From NCBI GenBank assembly GCA_011774835.1, contig JAACAK010000046.1, positions 1 to 64,000 on the forward strand: a stretch of 64,000 nucleotides of DNA, in the 5' to 3' direction. A program made the translations under genes and the position numbers. A model generated the notes under the pieces. That model was not told the origin of the DNA and did not search any database. It saw only the letters and a list, made by a program, of their open reading frames with translations. This DNA comes from Candidatus Kutchimonas denitrificans. Its GTDB lineage: Bacteria; Gemmatimonadota; Gemmatimonadetes; Palauibacterales; KS3-K002. Below are positions 3,533 to 14,610 of the stretch, in pieces (the first letter of the stretch is position 1; each line of letters starts with the position of its first letter).

Positions 3533-3643
3533 ATGGAGAAGCGCGCGAAACAGCCGGTTCTTCGGGCTCGTAGGACCACTCGAGGCCGCTGACGGCCTCA
3601 TCGAGTTCACAGCGAATAAACGCCACCGATATAACCGATATAC

Positions 3644-3904
3644 ATGAATCTTGTCGCCTGGATCATTTTCGGCTTCATCGCCGGCACGATCGCCAAGATG
3701 CTCCATCCTGGCCGCGACCCCGGCGGCTGTATCGTCACGATCCTGTTGGGAGTCGGCGGGGCGATGGTCGGCGGCTGGATCGGCACCCGGCTGGGCTGGG
3801 GTGGGGTCGACGAATGGTCGTGGCGGGCTCTCGGATTGGCGGTGATGGGATCGCTGGCGATCCTTATCGCTTTCCGAATTCTATTTGGCAAGAGAAGGGA
3901 CTGA
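3644..3904 (+). CDS. GlsB/YeaQ/YmgE-type small membrane protein
   Basis: An 86-residue protein with three hydrophobic segments (about residues 2-18, 30-47 and 63-81) separated by short polar turns and ending in a basic GKRRD tail. The glycine-rich pattern IIFGFIAGTIAK ... GGCIVTILLGVGGAMVGGWIGTRLG is characteristic of the transglycosylase-associated / GlsB stress family found in many bacterial inner membranes. The molecular function of the family is not established; members are often stress induced. It is a single gene, 110 bases after hutH and 280 bases before the prepilin-like operon. Confidence 0.85.
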   Translation: MNLVAWIIFGFIAGTIAKMLHPGRDPGGCIVTILLGVGGAMVGGWIGTRLGWGGVDEWSWRALGLAVMGSLAILIAFRILFGKRRD

Positions 3905-4032
3905 CGTCGACTCCCAACGGTCAACCTGACCGCCATCGCGGCCCGCGCCGGGCCGACGTTCGCATCCTTCGATCTCACAATCGGTTAGGCGAACCGGACC
4001 CTCTCCCAGCCGCACACCTGCCGTCGTAAACA

Positions 4033-4069
4033 TTTGCGGTCAAAATGCAAAGGTTTGCCGGTCATAATG
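4033..4069 (+). promoter_or_regulatory. Two direct repeats upstream of the prepilin-like operon
   Basis: TTTGCGGTCAAAATG (4033-4047) and TTTGCCGGTCATAATG (4054-4069) repeat with starts 21 nt apart, about two helical turns, roughly 115-150 nt before the first prepilin-like gene. The second copy contains CATAAT, which could serve as a -10. The arrangement suggests a regulator site pair or a promoter with an overlapping operator. A related GCGGTCAAA motif occurs near the pilin gene at 14.8 kb. No experimentally defined motif is claimed. Confidence 0.35.
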
Positions 4070-4184
4070 TCGGCCCGTTCTCTAAGTCATTGCATGGCAA
4101 CATCTGCTCGATGGCACGAAGATGGCATTGTGACCGAGACCCAGACCCGTCGAAACGACCCGCGAGGAAAGGGATTCGAAGCGG

Positions 4185-4610
4185 ATGCTGTGGGTAAATG
4201 GCAGGAGAGGATACACGCTGGTGGACATGACCGTGGTACTGATCATCATCGGCGCCGTCCTGTCCATGAGCGCCCCGCTGAGCCGACGGGTGATCGCGAA
4301 CTACCAGCTGAACACGGCGGTGCAAACGCTGACTTCGGACCTGGCGCAGACGAAGATCCGGGCGATCCAGGCGAACGAGGTGTCGACGGTGAAGCTCGAG
4401 TCCGAGAGCTACTACCGGGCCGCCGGCCATCCGCGCGAGCTGCCGGGGATGGTGAAGTTCGACGGGTCGAGCAGCGACTCGGTGGCGTTCAACGGTCTGG
4501 GTGCAGTGACCGACGGGACGGCCCATGCCTTCCTGCTGGTGAACACGTACGGCGAGACGAGGGAAGTGCGGATCTATGCCGCCGGCGGCCACGAGGTGAG
4601 GAAGCCGTGA
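4185..4610 (+). CDS. GspH/FimT-like prepilin-type protein
   Basis: A 141-residue minor pseudopilin candidate. It has a nine-residue basic leader ending in Gly, then Y-T-L-V-D and a 20-residue hydrophobic helix, the type III signal processed by prepilin peptidase. The usual Glu at mature position 5 is Asp. Family knowledge suggests GspH/FimT-like proteins sit at the tip of a type IV pilus or type II secretion pseudopilus. The ATG at 4185 has GAGGAAAGGG upstream. It is the first gene of a five-gene set of prepilin-like proteins and overlaps the next gene at GTGA. The assembly ATPase, PilC-like platform and secretin are not nearby, so pilus versus secretion cannot be decided here. Confidence 0.75.
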   Translation: MLWVNGRRGYTLVDMTVVLIIIGAVLSMSAPLSRRVIANYQLNTAVQTLTSDLAQTKIRAIQANEVSTVKLESESYYRAAGHPRELPGMVKFDGSSSDSVAFNGLGAVTDGTAHAFLLVNTYGETREVRIYAAGGHEVRKP

Positions 4611-5014
4611 GACAGCGAGATGGATTTACCCTGGTAGAGCTGGTCGTCTCACTGGTGATCTTCGCCTTCGGCGTGCTGGCCGGTGCTGCGCTGTTGGGCA
4701 CCGGTCACAAGTGGGAGGGGCAGGCCGAGCTGGAGACGCAGCTGACCGTTGCAGGCGAGATGAAGATCGAGCAGCTGAAGGCCATCGCCGGGACGGATCT
4801 TCCTGACACCGTTGCCCTGGTTCCCGGCGGTGGCCTCGAGTCGAACGTAGCCGGCTACTTCGACGCCGTGGAGATCGACGCTAGGACCTTCCGGCGGCGC
4901 TGGCGGGTGGAGCCGGGCCCGGCCGGTACACGGCAGGTGGTGGTTCGGGTGGTGCCGTTGATACCCCCGGCCGGGGGCCGGGCTGAACTGTGGACCAACG
5001 TGATCCATGAATAG
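4607..5014 (+). CDS. PilV/GspI-like prepilin-type protein
   Basis: A 135-residue protein starting at GTG 4607, which overlaps the previous stop (GTGA). The short leader VRQRDG is followed by FTLVELVVSLVIFAFGVLAG, a canonical class III signal with Glu at mature position 5. The remainder is a small globular domain without recognisable repeats. Length and N-terminus fit PilV/GspI-type minor pilins, which prime pilus or pseudopilus assembly. The frame is open upstream to 4034, but that stretch runs through the preceding gene and lacks pilin features, so the late start is preferred. Confidence 0.75.
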   Translation: MRQRDGFTLVELVVSLVIFAFGVLAGAALLGTGHKWEGQAELETQLTVAGEMKIEQLKAIAGTDLPDTVALVPGGGLESNVAGYFDAVEIDARTFRRRWRVEPGPAGTRQVVVRVVPLIPPAGGRAELWTNVIHE

Positions 5015-5618
5015 CCTCACCGAGATCAAGGCCGAGTCCCGACGAGTGGCGGGGTTCAGCACGCTGGGGATGATCGTCGCCCTCCTGTTGCTGGGTGTCC
5101 TACTTGCGCCGATGCTGGGCACGATCATCGCCGCGCAAGACGGCTTCGTGGATAGTCGCGAGCGGGCGCGAGCGGTCGGCAACGTCCGCTACGCCCATCT
5201 CGCGCTCACGCGATACATGCGCCTGGCCGGCAGCAGCCCGGTCGGGCTGCCTTTGCCGGGGATCGATCCGGACCCCGACGCGAACGGGGCCTTCGACGAT
5301 GTGAGGCTGCGCGCCGACTACAACCCGCCGGACGGCGACACCGATGATCTCGGCGAAGACCTCACGTTCTATGTGGCGGCCGACACGATGTACGTGCAGA
5401 CGGGCGGTGAAGATGACACGACCGAGCCCTATCTCATCGGTGTCGATTCGCTGGCTTTTGAATACTTCGATCGCTACGGCGTGCTGATCACCGATCCGGA
5501 CAAGGTCGGCACCCACGCGATCTCCGCCGCCGTGACCATCCGTGCCGTCGGGGAGCGAAGCTTCGAACCGACCGAGCGCTTGATCCACGGTGAAGTCCGC
5601 CTGCGTAACGGGAAGTGA
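5007..5618 (+). CDS. PilW-like prepilin-type protein lacking Glu5
   Basis: A 203-residue protein, overlapping the previous gene by 8 bases. A 16-residue leader ends RRVAG and is followed by FSTLGMIVALLLLGVLLAP, a hydrophobic helix of the pilin type but with Gly at mature position 5 instead of Glu. The middle carries acidic loops with Asp-rich repeats (DPDPDANGAFDD, DGDTDDLGED) that resemble calcium-binding loops. The order after GspH- and GspI-like genes and before PilX-like genes matches minor pilin operons, supporting a PilW/GspJ role. Loss of Glu5 is rare among pilins and may affect methylation or packing. Confidence 0.65.
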   Translation: MNSLTEIKAESRRVAGFSTLGMIVALLLLGVLLAPMLGTIIAAQDGFVDSRERARAVGNVRYAHLALTRYMRLAGSSPVGLPLPGIDPDPDANGAFDDVRLRADYNPPDGDTDDLGEDLTFYVAADTMYVQTGGEDDTTEPYLIGVDSLAFEYFDRYGVLITDPDKVGTHAISAAVTIRAVGERSFEPTERLIHGEVRLRNGK

Positions 5619-5623
5619 TCGCC

Positions 5624-6943
5624 ATGTCGACCAGGATGATTCGGAACGAAACAGGACTCGCGCTGCTGGCCGTGCTGCTGGCCATGGCGCTCCTCACGGC
5701 GATCGGCGCCGCGCTCACCGCGGTCGGGATCGTCGAGTACCGGACCTCCCTCAACCATCGCTCGGCGACCCGGGCTCTGCTCCTCGCCGATGGTGGAGCG
5801 ACCCACGCCCTGGGGCTGATGCGAGGTCCGCTCGCCGGCTACACCTACACCGACATCATTCTCGGCGCTGACAGGACCCCCAACACCGCGGACGACGGTC
5901 TGCTGGACGGGTTCCTGGGCCTCGACAGCGACGACGCGCTTCCCGATGGCGGCGTCACTCTGCCGCACGGCCGCTACTCGGTCCGGATCGTGAACGACGA
6001 TGGGGACCCTAGCGGTGACCCGTACATCGATACGAACAACCGGTTCATCGCCCTCTGCCGTGGCGAGACACCGGATGGCGGCGTGGCCGAGGTACGGGTG
6101 ATGCTGGCCGCGCCGAGCTACCCGGCCGTGGCCACCCGGGGGGACCTGTACGTACCGGGCGACCCCGCGGTGCTGGGCCGTCCGGGGAAGTGCGGGGGCG
6201 TTCACGCCAACCGGGTGATCTCGGTGAGCGGGCACCCGATCATCGACGGGGGCGTGACCGCGACCGAGGACGTCATCGTCTCCGGTACGATCTACGACTC
6301 GTTCGGAAACATCGTGGAGCCTGCGTACGCGCCGCCGATAGAGATCCCGGACTACGAGCCGATGGATTACTGCGCGTCGGCGGACTTCGTGCTGCGGGAC
6401 AAAAAGATTTATGTCACCGGTCCACCGGAGGAAATGTATCCGTTGAACCCTGGCAAATTTTCCGGCTGGCAGTGGGACACGGAGGAGAGCGCGTACGTTC
6501 TTAACGCCAGCGATGCGGTGGAAGGGACCGTCTGTGCCGACGGCAACATCAAGGTGAACGGAAACCTGGGGAGCACCGGTGATCCCTTCAATATCTCGTT
6601 CCTCGCGACCGGCTCCGTCCAGCTTGGTGGTACGCCGATTATCGAGGCGGCGCACCCCGACGGCATCCTGGTGATGGCCGGGGGCGACGCCCAGCTGGGT
6701 GGTAACCTGTCGGGCTCCACGCCCTATTACGCCGGTATGATCTACGCTGGCGCCCAGTGCCAGGTGAACGGTAACCCTCTCGTCGAAGGCCATATCGTGT
6801 GCGCCGATAACGAGGACCCGTACGGGGCGAACGACCTCTTCGACGACAACAAGATCAACGGTACGCCCACCATCAACTACGACTGCTCCGGCGTGCAGAG
6901 GCGCACGCTGATGGCCGCCTGGTGGGAATCCCGGACGCTCTAA
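5624..6943 (+). CDS. PilX-like prepilin-domain protein, copy 1
   Basis: About 439 residues. The N-terminus STRMIRNETG precedes a hydrophobic stretch LALLAVLLAMALLTAIGAAL, the PilX/GspK-like membrane anchor. The helix continues with EYRTSLNHRSATRAL. The long C-terminal part is beta-rich, with blocks CRGETPDGG, AGAQCQ and a closing YDCSGVQRR...WWESR. ATG 5624 has GGAAG upstream; GTG 5615, which overlaps the previous stop, is an alternative. The C-terminal region is predicted to be extracytoplasmic and contains a few cysteines that could pair. It is closely similar along its length to the next gene, showing a tandem duplication. Likely a pilus-tip or adhesin-like minor pilin; exact function unknown. 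Confidence 0.7.
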   Translation: MSTRMIRNETGLALLAVLLAMALLTAIGAALTAVGIVEYRTSLNHRSATRALLLADGGATHALGLMRGPLAGYTYTDIILGADRTPNTADDGLLDGFLGLDSDDALPDGGVTLPHGRYSVRIVNDDGDPSGDPYIDTNNRFIALCRGETPDGGVAEVRVMLAAPSYPAVATRGDLYVPGDPAVLGRPGKCGGVHANRVISVSGHPIIDGGVTATEDVIVSGTIYDSFGNIVEPAYAPPIEIPDYEPMDYCASADFVLRDKKIYVTGPPEEMYPLNPGKFSGWQWDTEESAYVLNASDAVEGTVCADGNIKVNGNLGSTGDPFNISFLATGSVQLGGTPIIEAAHPDGILVMAGGDAQLGGNLSGSTPYYAGMIYAGAQCQVNGNPLVEGHIVCADNEDPYGANDLFDDNKINGTPTINYDCSGVQRRTLMAAWWESRTL

Positions 6944-6969
6944 TTCTGCTATAAGCTAGAGAGCCCGCC

Positions 6970-8286
6970 ATGGACGCCGCGCGATGCCCATACCGTGAGA
7001 GCGAGTCGGGCATCGCGCTCATCGCCGTCCTGCTGGCCATGGCGTTGATTACCGTCATCGGCGCCGCGCTCACCGCCGTCGGCGTGGTCGAGTACCGCGC
7101 TTCGATCAATCATCGGTCCGCGAGCCAGGCCCTGCAGCTCGCCGACGCCGGCGCGATCCACGCGCTGGCGGCGATGCGCGGACCGCTCAGCCAGCTTAGC
7201 TACAGCGATCTATTGAGAGGCCACGATGGTCTCGCCGGAACCGCGGACGACGGCGTGCTCGACGGGTTCGGTCTCGACGAGTTCGATGCCTTGCCCGATA
7301 CCGGCGTGCTGTTGGGCGGCGGGCGCTACTACGTGAAGCTGCAGAACGACGATGCCGATCCCAGCGGTGACCCGACAACCGATCAGAACGACCGGGTTGT
7401 CGCGGTATGCCGCGGCGAAACGCCCGACGGCGGCAAAGCGGAGGTCAGGATCGTACTGGCCGCGCCGGCGTTCCCCGCGATCGTCAGCAACGGCGACCTG
7501 CTGCTGCCCGGCAACCCCGATGTCCTGGGTCCCTGCGCCGGCGTACACGCCAACAAAACCCTTACGGCGCTCGGATCCCCGGTTGTCGATGGAACGGTTA
7601 CCGCGTCGGACACGGTCATCTTGAGCGGCACGATCCGTGACGCCTTCGGATATGTGGTGACGCCGGGTTACGGGCCACCGGTGGAAGTGCCGGAGTACGA
7701 TATAGACGAGCACTGCGAAGAGGCGGAGTACTTGCTCCACAACGGCTGGGTGGTCACGGTCGGGCCGCCCCGCGACAGCGCGGAAGCGAAGGGTGCGGGT
7801 CACCTCGGCTGGAAGTGGCAATCATCGACGGATACCTACACGCTGTCGGGGAGCCAGGCGGTCACCGGCACGCACTGCGTGATCGGAAACGTCGAGCTGA
7901 ACGGCAACGCCGGGAGCGCAGGAAACCCGCTGCAGATCAGCCTGCTGGCCACCGGGTCCGTGCAGGTGACGGGCAATCCCAGAATCACGGCCGACCATTC
8001 CGAAGGGATATTGATTTTGGCGGAGGGGGACGTCGAGATCGGCGGGGTCGCGTCGGGAAGCACGCCGTCCTATTCCGGTCTGGTCTACGCCGGCGCCCAG
8101 TGCCAGATGCACGGTACGCCCAGCGTCGACGGACATATCCTCTGCTACGATGCCGGGGATCCGGTCGGTGCGGCCGACATCACCATCGGCAACGAGTTCA
8201 ACGGGACACCGACCGTGACCTACGACTGCTCGGGAGTGCGGCGAAGCACGATGATCGCGTCCTGGTGGGAGTCCCGGGCCCGGTGA
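6970..8286 (+). CDS. PilX-like prepilin-domain protein, copy 2
   Basis: A 438-residue paralogue of the preceding gene. Shared blocks include the anchor ALIAVLLAMALITVIGAAL, EYRASINHRSASQAL, DPSGDP, CRGETPDGGKAEVR, GVHANK, LLATGSVQ, AGAQCQ and NGTPTVTYDCSGVRR..WWESR. Differences are concentrated in the central region, which suggests divergence of the exposed surface after duplication. Start ATG 6970 follows the previous stop by 26 bases and gives a 14-residue leader ending in Gly. It is the last gene of the prepilin-like operon and is followed by a probable terminator. No PilY1-like gene follows, unlike many pilX operons. Confidence 0.7.
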   Translation: MDAARCPYRESESGIALIAVLLAMALITVIGAALTAVGVVEYRASINHRSASQALQLADAGAIHALAAMRGPLSQLSYSDLLRGHDGLAGTADDGVLDGFGLDEFDALPDTGVLLGGGRYYVKLQNDDADPSGDPTTDQNDRVVAVCRGETPDGGKAEVRIVLAAPAFPAIVSNGDLLLPGNPDVLGPCAGVHANKTLTALGSPVVDGTVTASDTVILSGTIRDAFGYVVTPGYGPPVEVPEYDIDEHCEEAEYLLHNGWVVTVGPPRDSAEAKGAGHLGWKWQSSTDTYTLSGSQAVTGTHCVIGNVELNGNAGSAGNPLQISLLATGSVQVTGNPRITADHSEGILILAEGDVEIGGVASGSTPSYSGLVYAGAQCQMHGTPSVDGHILCYDAGDPVGAADITIGNEFNGTPTVTYDCSGVRRSTMIASWWESRAR

Positions 8287-8375
8287 GTCGGGACGCGAAC
8301 GAGATCCATCGGGGCACGAACGAGATCTTCACGAGCGAGATCCGATAGAAGCTTTCCTACCCGCCAAGTCGAAAC

Positions 8376-8439: not shown

Positions 8440-9891
8440 CTAAGAGAAGTCGGTCCAGGTCAGCACGGGGCTGTCGAGCGCCGAGCGTGGGTCCAACCGC
8501 GCCCGGAACATGGCGCCGTCGGCCTCGGACACGAGTCGTTCGACGATGCCGTCGAAGCCCGGCAAGCCGCGCTCCTTGTACCCTTCCTCTCCCGGCTCCA
8601 TCGAGGCGACGCCCATCGACACCGTCAACTGTGGCAAGCTGTCGGGCCAAGGACGGCCGCTCTGACGCCCCAGAGCGCCATACAGTCTCTGTACCGCGGT
8701 GTGTGCGCCCTCCTGGTTGGCATCGATCAGAACGACCAGAAACTCGTCGCCCCCGAAGCGTCCTACGATGTCCGAGTCCCGCACGTTCCGTCTGAGTAGC
8801 TGCCCCAGGTGGCGGAGCGCGCGGTCGCCGGCCACGTGGCCGTACTGTTCGTTGACGTCTCTGAAGTGATCGATGTCGATCATCACGACCGAGACGGGGA
8901 ACTCCTTGCGCCAGGCGAGCTTGAGCGTTTCGCTGAGCCGCTCGAGCGTGAACGCTTTGCGGAAGACCCGGGTGGTCGCATCGATCGTGGCGAGCTCGTA
9001 GAGCGCCGCGTTGCGGATCGCCGATGCCGCCTGCGCCGCATACACCCTCAGCAGGTCGGCGTCACGTTCCGTCGGCGCCGGCCGGCTCAGATAGGCCAGG
9101 CCGAGGACATGCTCTGCCAGGGTCAGCGGCAAGACGCCGTGGCGCCCGTCGATGAGCTGTTCCCCCTCCTCGACCGCGCGCTTCAACAGACTCGCGGGGA
9201 GCTTCGGCAGCTGGTCCAGCGTGGCCCCATGCGGCACGCTGTCGTTCGTGACGGCACCGACCACGAAGTCTTCCACGGTCTGGGTATCGGAGTCGCCTTC
9301 CTCCAGCCGGGGCTTGCCGATCGGGTCGCTCAACCGGGCCGCGACGAACTCCGGGTGGCCACCCACGAGTTCGCCGACCTGGGCGAGGATCGCTTCCAGC
9401 ACGTTCTCGATCGATTGGAGGCGGTGCAGCTCGGGCACCGCGTCGAGCACGCGCTGCAGGCCCGACCGGGTTCGCCGGACGGCCGCCGATTGATTGGCCA
9501 ACACAAGCGCCGCCCGCACCCACAGGCGCAACGCGTCGCTGCCATGCTCCTTGTCGTGGTAGCCGAAGATGTCGTGGGCGCGGCAGAAGGACCGGAAGCG
9601 ATCGTCCGGCGCCCCGGTGGCGGTGAGCACGATCGGCGCACCTGGAGCCCGCTCTCTCAGGTCGCCCAACGGGTCGGCCCCGTCCATGTCGAGGAGAGCG
9701 ACCTCGACGACCAGCAGCTGGGGCGTCTGGTCGGCCAGGAAGTTGGCGGCGGCGATGAGATCTTCGGCGCCCCAGGCGCGGTGGCCGTCCTCGGCGATCA
9801 GCTGGCAGTTCCAGCTCAAGAAGCCGGGATCGCTGTCGACCAGAAGTACGCTCAGTCCATCCGTCGCCTGCACCGTAGCTCGACCTGACAT
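8440..9891 (-). CDS. Diguanylate cyclase with degenerate receiver and GAF-like domain
   Basis: Makes c-di-GMP from two GTP. Start chosen at ATG 9891 (483 residues), where the receiver-like domain begins; a longer open frame upstream looks non-coding. Order: receiver-like fold (about 10-130), a GAF-like sensory region (about 160-320), then GGDEF (about 325-475). The active site reads RFGGDEF and is intact, and RDSD five residues before it matches the RxxD inhibitory I-site. In the receiver the acidic pair (VDSD) and a lysine (HDK) are present, but the phospho-acceptor position in LLVVEVALLDMDG is Glu instead of Asp. It may therefore act without phosphorylation. It stands alone between the prepilin-like operon and a quinone oxidoreductase gene. 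Confidence 0.88.
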   Translation of the reverse strand: MSGRATVQATDGLSVLLVDSDPGFLSWNCQLIAEDGHRAWGAEDLIAAANFLADQTPQLLVVEVALLDMDGADPLGDLRERAPGAPIVLTATGAPDDRFRSFCRAHDIFGYHDKEHGSDALRLWVRAALVLANQSAAVRRTRSGLQRVLDAVPELHRLQSIENVLEAILAQVGELVGGHPEFVAARLSDPIGKPRLEEGDSDTQTVEDFVVGAVTNDSVPHGATLDQLPKLPASLLKRAVEEGEQLIDGRHGVLPLTLAEHVLGLAYLSRPAPTERDADLLRVYAAQAASAIRNAALYELATIDATTRVFRKAFTLERLSETLKLAWRKEFPVSVVMIDIDHFRDVNEQYGHVAGDRALRHLGQLLRRNVRDSDIVGRFGGDEFLVVLIDANQEGAHTAVQRLYGALGRQSGRPWPDSLPQLTVSMGVASMEPGEEGYKERGLPGFDGIVERLVSEADGAMFRARLDPRSALDSPVLTWTDFS

Positions 9892-10067
9892 ATGACCGCT
9901 CGCGTTCTGCGCCCCAGGGCACACTTTCGGTGTGTCGTGGATGTCGGGAATGCGGGGGATTGATAAGACGGCGGGAGGGGTCGTAATTCTATACCCGGAA
10001 GCAGCCACGAGGTTCGCGTGGCGCGGTCCCTCTTTTCGCCGGCGGTCGAGCCGGGAGGGTGACTGAA

Positions 10068-14175: not shown

Positions 14176-14610
14176 TCATTCTGTGCAGACGATCTTGCCG
14201 TCCGTCGTGACCGGGATGCCGGCAGGTGGGGAGGCGTTACCGATGTATAAGCCGCACTCGACTGGGGTCGCCGCGTGCACCGCCTTCGCGGACCAGCCGT
14301 TGCCGGCGACTTCGGTGATGTTCACCGTCACGTTCGGGGTCTTGTTGAATTCGAGCTTGGAAACGTCGTCCGCGTAGGCATTGTAATGGCTGAAGTACGA
14401 CTCCTGGGCCGAGATCAATGAGTGGAGATCGCCCTGCAACTGCGCACGGTACGCCTTCTCCCGCGCCGACCCGAACTGCGGTATCGCGATGGCGGTGAGC
14501 AGTCCGATGAGCACGACGACGATGAGCAACTCGATGAGCGTGAAACCGGTGGCAGACCTCCTCACGGACGGTGCAGCCGTTTTCCTATCGCTCACTGCGA
14601 TGTCTGCCAT
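14176..14610 (-). CDS. Type IV pilin (PilA/PilE-like)
   Basis: A 144-residue prepilin. A 22-residue leader ending in RRSATG is followed by FTLIELLIVVVLIGLLTAIA, the canonical prepilin peptidase site with Glu5 and the N-terminal assembly helix. The globular part ends with VECGLYIG and KIVCTE, whose two cysteines could form the D-region disulfide. The minus-strand ATG at 14610 has GGGAGGT upstream. The leader is longer than the usual 5-8 residues of type IVa pilins. The gene is alone, divergent from a membrane-protein/ndh operon. Strong candidate for a major pilin subunit; a pseudopilin GspG is an alternative, although the C-terminal GspG calcium site is not apparent. Confidence 0.87.
   Translation of the reverse strand: MADIAVSDRKTAAPSVRRSATGFTLIELLIVVVLIGLLTAIAIPQFGSAREKAYRAQLQGDLHSLISAQESYFSHYNAYADDVSKLEFNKTPNVTVNITEVAGNGWSAKAVHAATPVECGLYIGNASPPAGIPVTTDGKIVCTE

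Follow-up and report, generated by a model that had tools for sequence, protein, structure and literature searches.

How bacteria switch the target held by a type IV pilus is a question that brings into focus the subunits at the end of the fibre, and two described systems stand close to the locus reported here. According to the sections of the Myxococcus report drawn on here (PMC7541494), Myxococcus PilX and GspK are without the glutamate at mature position 5 (Glu5) and lie at the top of the pilin stack, in Myxococcus under PilY1. The structure of ComZ, in the parts of its report cited here (PMC6561018), is that of a GspK-like pilin with a solenoid placed between its last two strands; the nearest solved folds are FfIBP (solenoid) and GspK (pilin part), a long loop with a short helix (216-301) joins the solenoid ends, and position 5 is Gly. 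The same parts of that report describe DNA binding that involves K98 and K233, located between the two domains, report ComZ to be without a positive patch, and argue that a pilin of this type fits only at the tip and not inside the fibre.

The window (the whole stretch of DNA that was analysed, 64,000 nucleotides) comes from a Gemmatimonadota MAG with an assembly of 3.76 Mb in 149 contigs. Two neighbouring prepilin-type proteins of about 440 residues had been pointed out by the first-pass annotation, and both open reading frames (A and B hereafter) were confirmed on the plus strand at the positions listed in Table 1. They are the last genes of an operon, H-V-W-A-B, in which H, V and W directly precede A on the plus strand with gaps that are small or nil, and A and B are spaced by 26 bp.

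Table 1. Positions in the window of the genes of the minor-pilin operon and of the most divergent stretch of A
Feature	Position	Strand	Remarks
H: FimT/GspH-like minor pilin	4185..4610	+	Prepilin leader RRG-YTLVD
V: PilV-like minor pilin	4607..5014	+	GTG start overlaps H
W: PilW-like minor pilin, without Glu5	5007..5618	+	Leader AG-FSTLG
A: PilX/GspK-type large minor pilin, predicted beta-solenoid	5624..6943	+	ATG at 5624; 439 aa
B: paralogue of A	6970..8286	+	438 aa
Most divergent stretch of A	6338..6523	+	About residues 239-300; coordinates converted by hand from residue numbers

H matched the NCBIfam models of Verru_Chthon D, ComGD and GspH, all below the cut-off, and its orthologue was found in four related neighbourhoods (L024-L027). 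For V, the N_methyl match was 29.3 bits (cut-off, 21.2) and the IV_pilin_GFxxxE match was also above the cut-off; the best NCBIfam match was PilV, yet under the cut-off (the start of V at 4607 was read by eye, and the V protein scanned for domains started at 4610). There was no match to W in the Pfam scan, and W was named PilW-like from its operon position and its orthologues. Mature residue 5 of W is Gly in all five genomes compared, and Glu5 is missing from three of the five pilins of the window operon (W, A and B). The operon is flanked by a histidine ammonia-lyase-type gene and a Transgly_assoc gene on one side and by a GGDEF gene on the other; genes for an aromatic amino acid lyase (PF00221), Transgly_assoc, GGDEF and a zinc-type dehydrogenase are conserved flanks in all five genomes (window, G001, G003, G004 and G006). 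The GGDEF/DUF3369 protein (8440-10008), which also has a response-regulator match slightly below the cut-off, is encoded convergently to the pilin operon and adjacent to it in all five genomes, and may connect pilus use with c-di-GMP. Scanning for promoters and terminators gave results no better than chance.

The label "PilX-like" previously attached to the pair stood as far as the Glu5-less leader and the operon position are concerned and fell short in the Pfam score, PilX_N (PF14341) being matched with 11.0 bits by A (scanned without its start Met) and with 18.3 bits by B against a cut-off of 25.5. The prepilin leader ends in Gly and mature residue 5 is Ala, not Glu, in 9/9 family proteins, and A occupies the PilX position, following FimT-, PilV- and PilW-like genes in the window and in four relatives. 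The Verru_Chthon and GspK families were tried and rejected for A and B; the scores were 16.5 and 25.9 bits against 332.3 for Verru_Chthon cassette protein A (TIGR02600), in the leader region only, and, with the N-termini, 17.3 (A) and 20.8 (B) bits against 130 for GspK (NF037980). The weak GspK matches would fit A and B being tip pilins of another system, for example a type II-like secretion pseudopilus in which they would take the GspK role, but the scores lie far under the GspK cut-off, no secretion gene was among the four flanking genes checked, and a PilT-family ATPase was found above the cut-off in 11/11 genomes searched, although it need not serve this operon; we consider this explanation improbable. 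DUF7305 (PF23981) was matched with 18.5 and 18.1 bits (cut-off, 27), over residues 302-394 of A; the model matches 9/12 members of the A/B family at E <= 0.1 and, at E <= 1, also Thermus composti below the cut-off (1 of 14 control genomes). A literature search on DUF7305 found no paper. The sequence searches for a solved relative of A/B gave no pilin, and the few matches look like chance; ComZ (6qvi) was not matched with B alone at E <= 1, nor with two profiles at E <= 10.

Structure prediction, which the first-pass annotation had suggested as a check, was performed with AlphaFold from a nine-row alignment (mean pLDDT: 74.9 for A and 75.2 for B). Both models have an N-terminal pilin helix of low-to-middling confidence, a pilin domain of low confidence (blocks mostly <70) and a beta-solenoid of high confidence at about 165-421 (ten-residue blocks of 171-420 average pLDDT 75-97). 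After the solenoid, a strand (428-435) is found in model A and a two-residue bridge in model B, all with pLDDT <50, as are the last 17 residues in both models, so that a ComZ-like insertion of the solenoid into the end of the pilin fold is a tentative placement. The divergent stretch (Table 1) interrupts the predicted solenoid with a short helix and hairpins. In VIA-align, which re-scored Foldseek candidates only, the top matches were ice-binding proteins (Z 15.7 for A and 15.9 for B; about 180 residues, rmsd about 3.2, mainly solenoid). ComZ (6qvi) was matched with Z 14.1 by the A model (rmsd 3.9, 223 aligned residues, range 74-427) and with Z 14.7 by the B model (rmsd 8.3, 326 aligned residues, range 39-424); after the ice-binding proteins and ComZ, the lists fall below Z 8, and ComZ is the sole row above Z 8 that starts before residue 129 (A) or 165 (B). 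For the A model, no match from Foldseek itself reached E <= 0.001. The models support a beta-solenoid of the ice-binding-protein type in A and B, and the link to ComZ rests on this predicted fold. From the order along the chain, rather than a residue-level alignment, the insert of A and B would correspond to the loop of ComZ. The view that the two proteins are of a pilus-tip type is supported as to type, and the tip is where they would presumably be located. Just before the solenoid, both proteins have an acidic motif, GxDxxxxTxDD (window positions 5864-5899 in A and 7219-7254 in B), which is found in 10/10 aligned family members, including that of G329, and which we take to resemble a metal-binding loop.

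The window genome (G000) was compared with G003, G001, G006 and G004, whose A, B or single copy (X) are identical, start residue aside, to those of CP070823, CP070812, CP070815 and CP070722, respectively, the nearest named relatives in the genome collection (Gemmatimonadota MAGs). BLAST of the operon proteins showed the order H-V-W-A-B in the window, G001, G003 and G006, and H-V-W-X, with one full-length copy, in G004; of the five family genomes in which the locus is intact, that of the window among them, four carry both copies, and the synteny is conserved. Eight family genomes comprise four with the pair, one with a single full-length copy, one that is contig-cut inside W, and two (G002 and G005) in which neither W nor a full-length X was found. 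True absence was rejected for G007, where the W match reaches the end of a 4484-base contig. One of the patterns that the first-pass annotation had set against its own reading was both copies occurring as single-copy orthologues throughout the phylum; this was half borne out, being found in most of the family and not in the phylum, where 8/395 genomes match at 1e-10. With a broader profile, 36/394 genomes of the class match at 1e-8; full-length members are in 8 genomes (those matching at 1e-10; four carry the pair and four a single copy), all full-length proteins of which were themselves in the profile, and the other 28 have an N-terminal match only (about 59-87 profile positions, one reaching position 188). 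A first scan of the genome contigs with B alone gave no match.

In the phylogenetic tree, A was separated from B (clade supports, 90/92 and 91/90, below the starred level); when the distant outgroup X_G329 was added, the B clade was without support (28/0). Trees in which A and B were forced to pair within G000, within G003, or within G001+G006 differed by -43.5, -47.8 and -48.7 log units, respectively, and pairing within the genome or genus was rejected in 3/3 tests (p-AU 0.0002-0.005). The mean A-B identity differs by <=0.06, in either direction, between the same and different genomes over 15 alignment blocks. Recent duplication and homogenisation by gene conversion were ruled out by these tree tests and block identities. 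The comparison of the duplication placed before and after the split of G004 gave p-AU 0.312. The data support an old duplication that preceded the split of the genera carrying the pair, with A and B as separate orthologue groups in four genomes; the pair, retained in several genera of a single family, is ancient rather than recent and is not demonstrably fast-evolving.

A and B are tandem paralogues, as had been proposed from the first reading of the window, with an identity of 56% (BLAST; pairwise alignment) or 55% (multiple alignment). The cysteine motifs and the C-terminal ending that they were said to share were also recovered: each of the 7 cysteines of A aligns with one in B, and both proteins end in YDCSGV.R.T..A.WWESR, of which W433, W434, E435 and R437 are invariant across the nine family proteins; this conserved end lies after the solenoid. 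The middle had been described as different, and the divergence along A and B is indeed not uniform: in the window genome the lowest 40-column window has an identity of 0.200 (columns 246-288; P = 0.0004), the permutation mean for such a window being 0.378 (5000 permutations). For the other three pair-carrying genomes, P was 0.0018, 0.010 and 0.0024, and the beyond-chance window lies inside columns 230-318 in 4/4 A-B pairs. Within the same genome, the A-B identity in columns 211-300 is 31-48%. Orthologues, too, are least alike in these columns (inside the A or B group, 30-column blocks have a mean identity of 46-55% here and of 59-87% in the twelve remaining blocks), so that they are the freest part of the protein generally, to which the A-B difference is added. 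A local identity minimum beyond chance (0.05) was found in 3/4 orthologue comparisons, and that of B_G000 versus B_G003 was within chance (P = 0.14). At three alignment columns the A group and the B group are each fixed for a different residue (I/V 241, K/W 261 and L/A 315, A numbering); the X protein of G004 carries V, W and L there. Of 12 family members, 9 have cysteines 250 and 304 together and 3 have neither, never one singly, a pattern that suggests a disulfide at the insert. The two cysteines are kept in 4/4 A and lost in 3/4 B; these counts take no account of common descent, and a single event may explain all three losses.

The first-pass annotation had taken the exposed middle to be diversifying, in line with tip adhesins or surface ligands under selection, and dN/dS by region (Nei-Gojobori method with Jukes-Cantor correction) bears on a reading of tip adhesins diversifying under positive selection, together with the lowest-identity windows of the four A-B pairs, which agree with it. 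Of the three regions, the middle (columns 211-300) shows the highest dN/dS in 8/8 comparisons, and between A and B of one genome it ranges over 0.36-1.11 in the four genomes. The value of 1.11 [0.67-1.77] is that of A_G006 versus B_G006 (1.38 [0.73-3.11] in columns 241-300), and for A and B of the window it is 0.67 [0.32-1.11] (0.88 [0.36-1.70] in columns 241-300); every interval for the A-B middle extends below 1, the four quoted here include 1, and the ratios are rough, because the synonymous differences amount to 0.47-0.59 per site over the whole gene. Against the reading stand the closest orthologues (G001 versus G006, same genus): the whole-gene dN/dS is 0.12 (A) and 0.16 (B), for the middle the A pair gives 0.18 [0.08-0.40] and the B pair 0.29 [0.13-0.50], and pN >= pS was found in 0/82 windows of 30 codons in the A pair and 0/82 in the B pair. 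The copies are, moreover, stable, syntenic, single orthologues. The middle is mainly under weaker purifying selection; it evolves fast between orthologues as well, the claim of positive selection was not borne out, and we regard diversifying adhesins as a quite unlikely explanation. The locus offers a case in which the divergent middle of paralogues resembles diversifying selection while the orthologues show mainly weaker constraint.

Our preferred explanation, to which we give about even chances, is that A and B both cap the pilus tip in the manner of ComZ, probably as alternatives to each other and with different ligands. Both would be minor pilins of the PilX/GspK position built like Thermus ComZ, with an N-terminal prepilin helix without Glu5, presumably processed by the prepilin peptidase, a small pilin domain, which the conserved strand at the C-terminus probably closes, and, between the helix and the C-terminal end, a large beta-solenoid that would be located at the end of the fibre. 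The gene would have been duplicated before the pair-carrying genera split, and purifying selection would have maintained both copies, which stayed in one operon. Most probably either A or B can cap the H-V-W priming complex, so that one machine would make pili tipped with A or with B, and each tip would contact a different ligand through the divergent insert in its solenoid. Alternative caps seem the simplest arrangement because the operon has one H, one V and one W, because one copy suffices in G004, and because the PilX/GspK position tops the stack in the published description cited above (PMC7541494). The main rival is a joint tip, in which A and B belong to one complex, one as the cap and the other beside or just below it, making an obligate heteromeric tip instead of alternatives. 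The retention of both copies in the same operon order in four genomes and the similar, though unequal, branch lengths of A and B would suit such a complex, and the absence of Glu5 from W in 5/5 genomes means that the priming complex may tolerate more than one Glu5-less subunit; G004, however, has the same operon with one full-length copy, which suffices there, and a solenoid of the ComZ kind is argued, in the sections cited (PMC6561018), not to fit inside the fibre. We hold the joint tip to be possible but clearly the less likely arrangement.

The ligand of A and B would be, in the first place, extracellular DNA and, in the second, a glycan or protein on a surface. The likeness to ComZ speaks slightly for DNA, as does the co-occurrence with ComEC, which hints at competence: ComEC was found in 6/6 family genomes holding the operon (one contig-cut; the G003 match covers only part of the domain) and in 0/2 lacking it, a comparison that covers eight genomes and in which the two without ComEC are of 2.4 and 1.7 Mb, the latter 83% complete. 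DNA is disfavoured by the ectodomains, which are acidic (pI 4.05-4.73 in 10 proteins), an unusual look for a DNA receptor, though a positive patch is likewise missing from the published description of ComZ, and by DprA, which does not track ComEC, being strong in G002, present as fragments only in the window genome and as a piece below the cut-off in G005, with none found in G001. PilY1 is the usual tip adhesin; the PilY1 search gave no match in 9/10 genomes, the window's included, and one match, in G006, which is the evidence for its sensitivity, as 0/14 control genomes matched. With PilY1 in 1/10 genomes, A and B may take over its place. A more far-reaching version, which we put forward tentatively, is that two interchangeable ComZ-like caps stand side by side, mostly without PilY1, as the outcome of an ancient split of one tip receptor into two that would differ in ligand, with the fixed K261 in A and a fixed tryptophan in B at the same site of the insert, and that the machine would choose its tip. 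Should the alternative caps be real, a ComZ-like solenoid tip pilin would exist in a phylum distant from Thermus, and a natural pair of tips long kept side by side would make "one machine, two tips" testable.

Other pilin genes were observed in these genomes. The window genome has 21 N_methyl matches on 11 contigs; in the window itself a separate prepilin gene (14176-14610, minus strand) has an N_methyl match above the cut-off and a ComP_DUS match below it (21.1 bits versus 27.3). At L031 (6191-14390; contig C116 of the window genome), FimT-, PilW- and PilX-like genes occur twice, as two successive minor-pilin sets, and L032 (5652-7463) encodes a further protein of 603 residues with a PilX_N leader below the cut-off. 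L055 of G329 (3579-8332) has V-W-X(solenoid) genes followed by genes for further small pilins and for a protein whose PilX_N leader scores slightly below the cut-off, and minor-pilin sets seem to be repeated in G329 too.

Among known systems, the operon is like the FimU-PilV-PilW-PilX-PilY1 complexes of Myxococcus xanthus clusters 1-3 in having a minor-pilin set with a Glu5-less PilX, and the service of one machine by several paralogous sets, as given in the sections of that report used here, is a likeness to the A/B operon; in Myxococcus, however, whole clusters are repeated, each with PilY1, whereas here only the last gene of the operon is doubled (PMC7541494). Minor-pilin paralogues are also described in Xylella fastidiosa (PilX1/2 and FimT1-3), where, in the portion of the report consulted (PMC9956873), their roles differ in motility and DNA uptake and they lie mostly in two separate genome regions, in contrast to the tandem pair that ends one operon. 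The closest likeness is to ComZ of Thermus thermophilus (6qvi), a large Glu5-less pilin with an ice-binding-protein-like beta-solenoid on the pilin domain, a loop with a short helix interrupting the solenoid and a gene cluster with small pilins, as far as the cited parts describe it (PMC6561018). A and B differ from it in being without detectable sequence similarity and in length (about 440 residues versus 518 in the crystallised ComZ chain), in the number of genes (two here versus one in the Thermus locus as described in those parts), and in that DNA binding is a demonstrated feature of ComZ there, whereas A and B are known from sequence and models. Duplicated minor pilins and a solenoid pilin are already known; to judge from the literature searched, what is new here is that both are combined in one operon.
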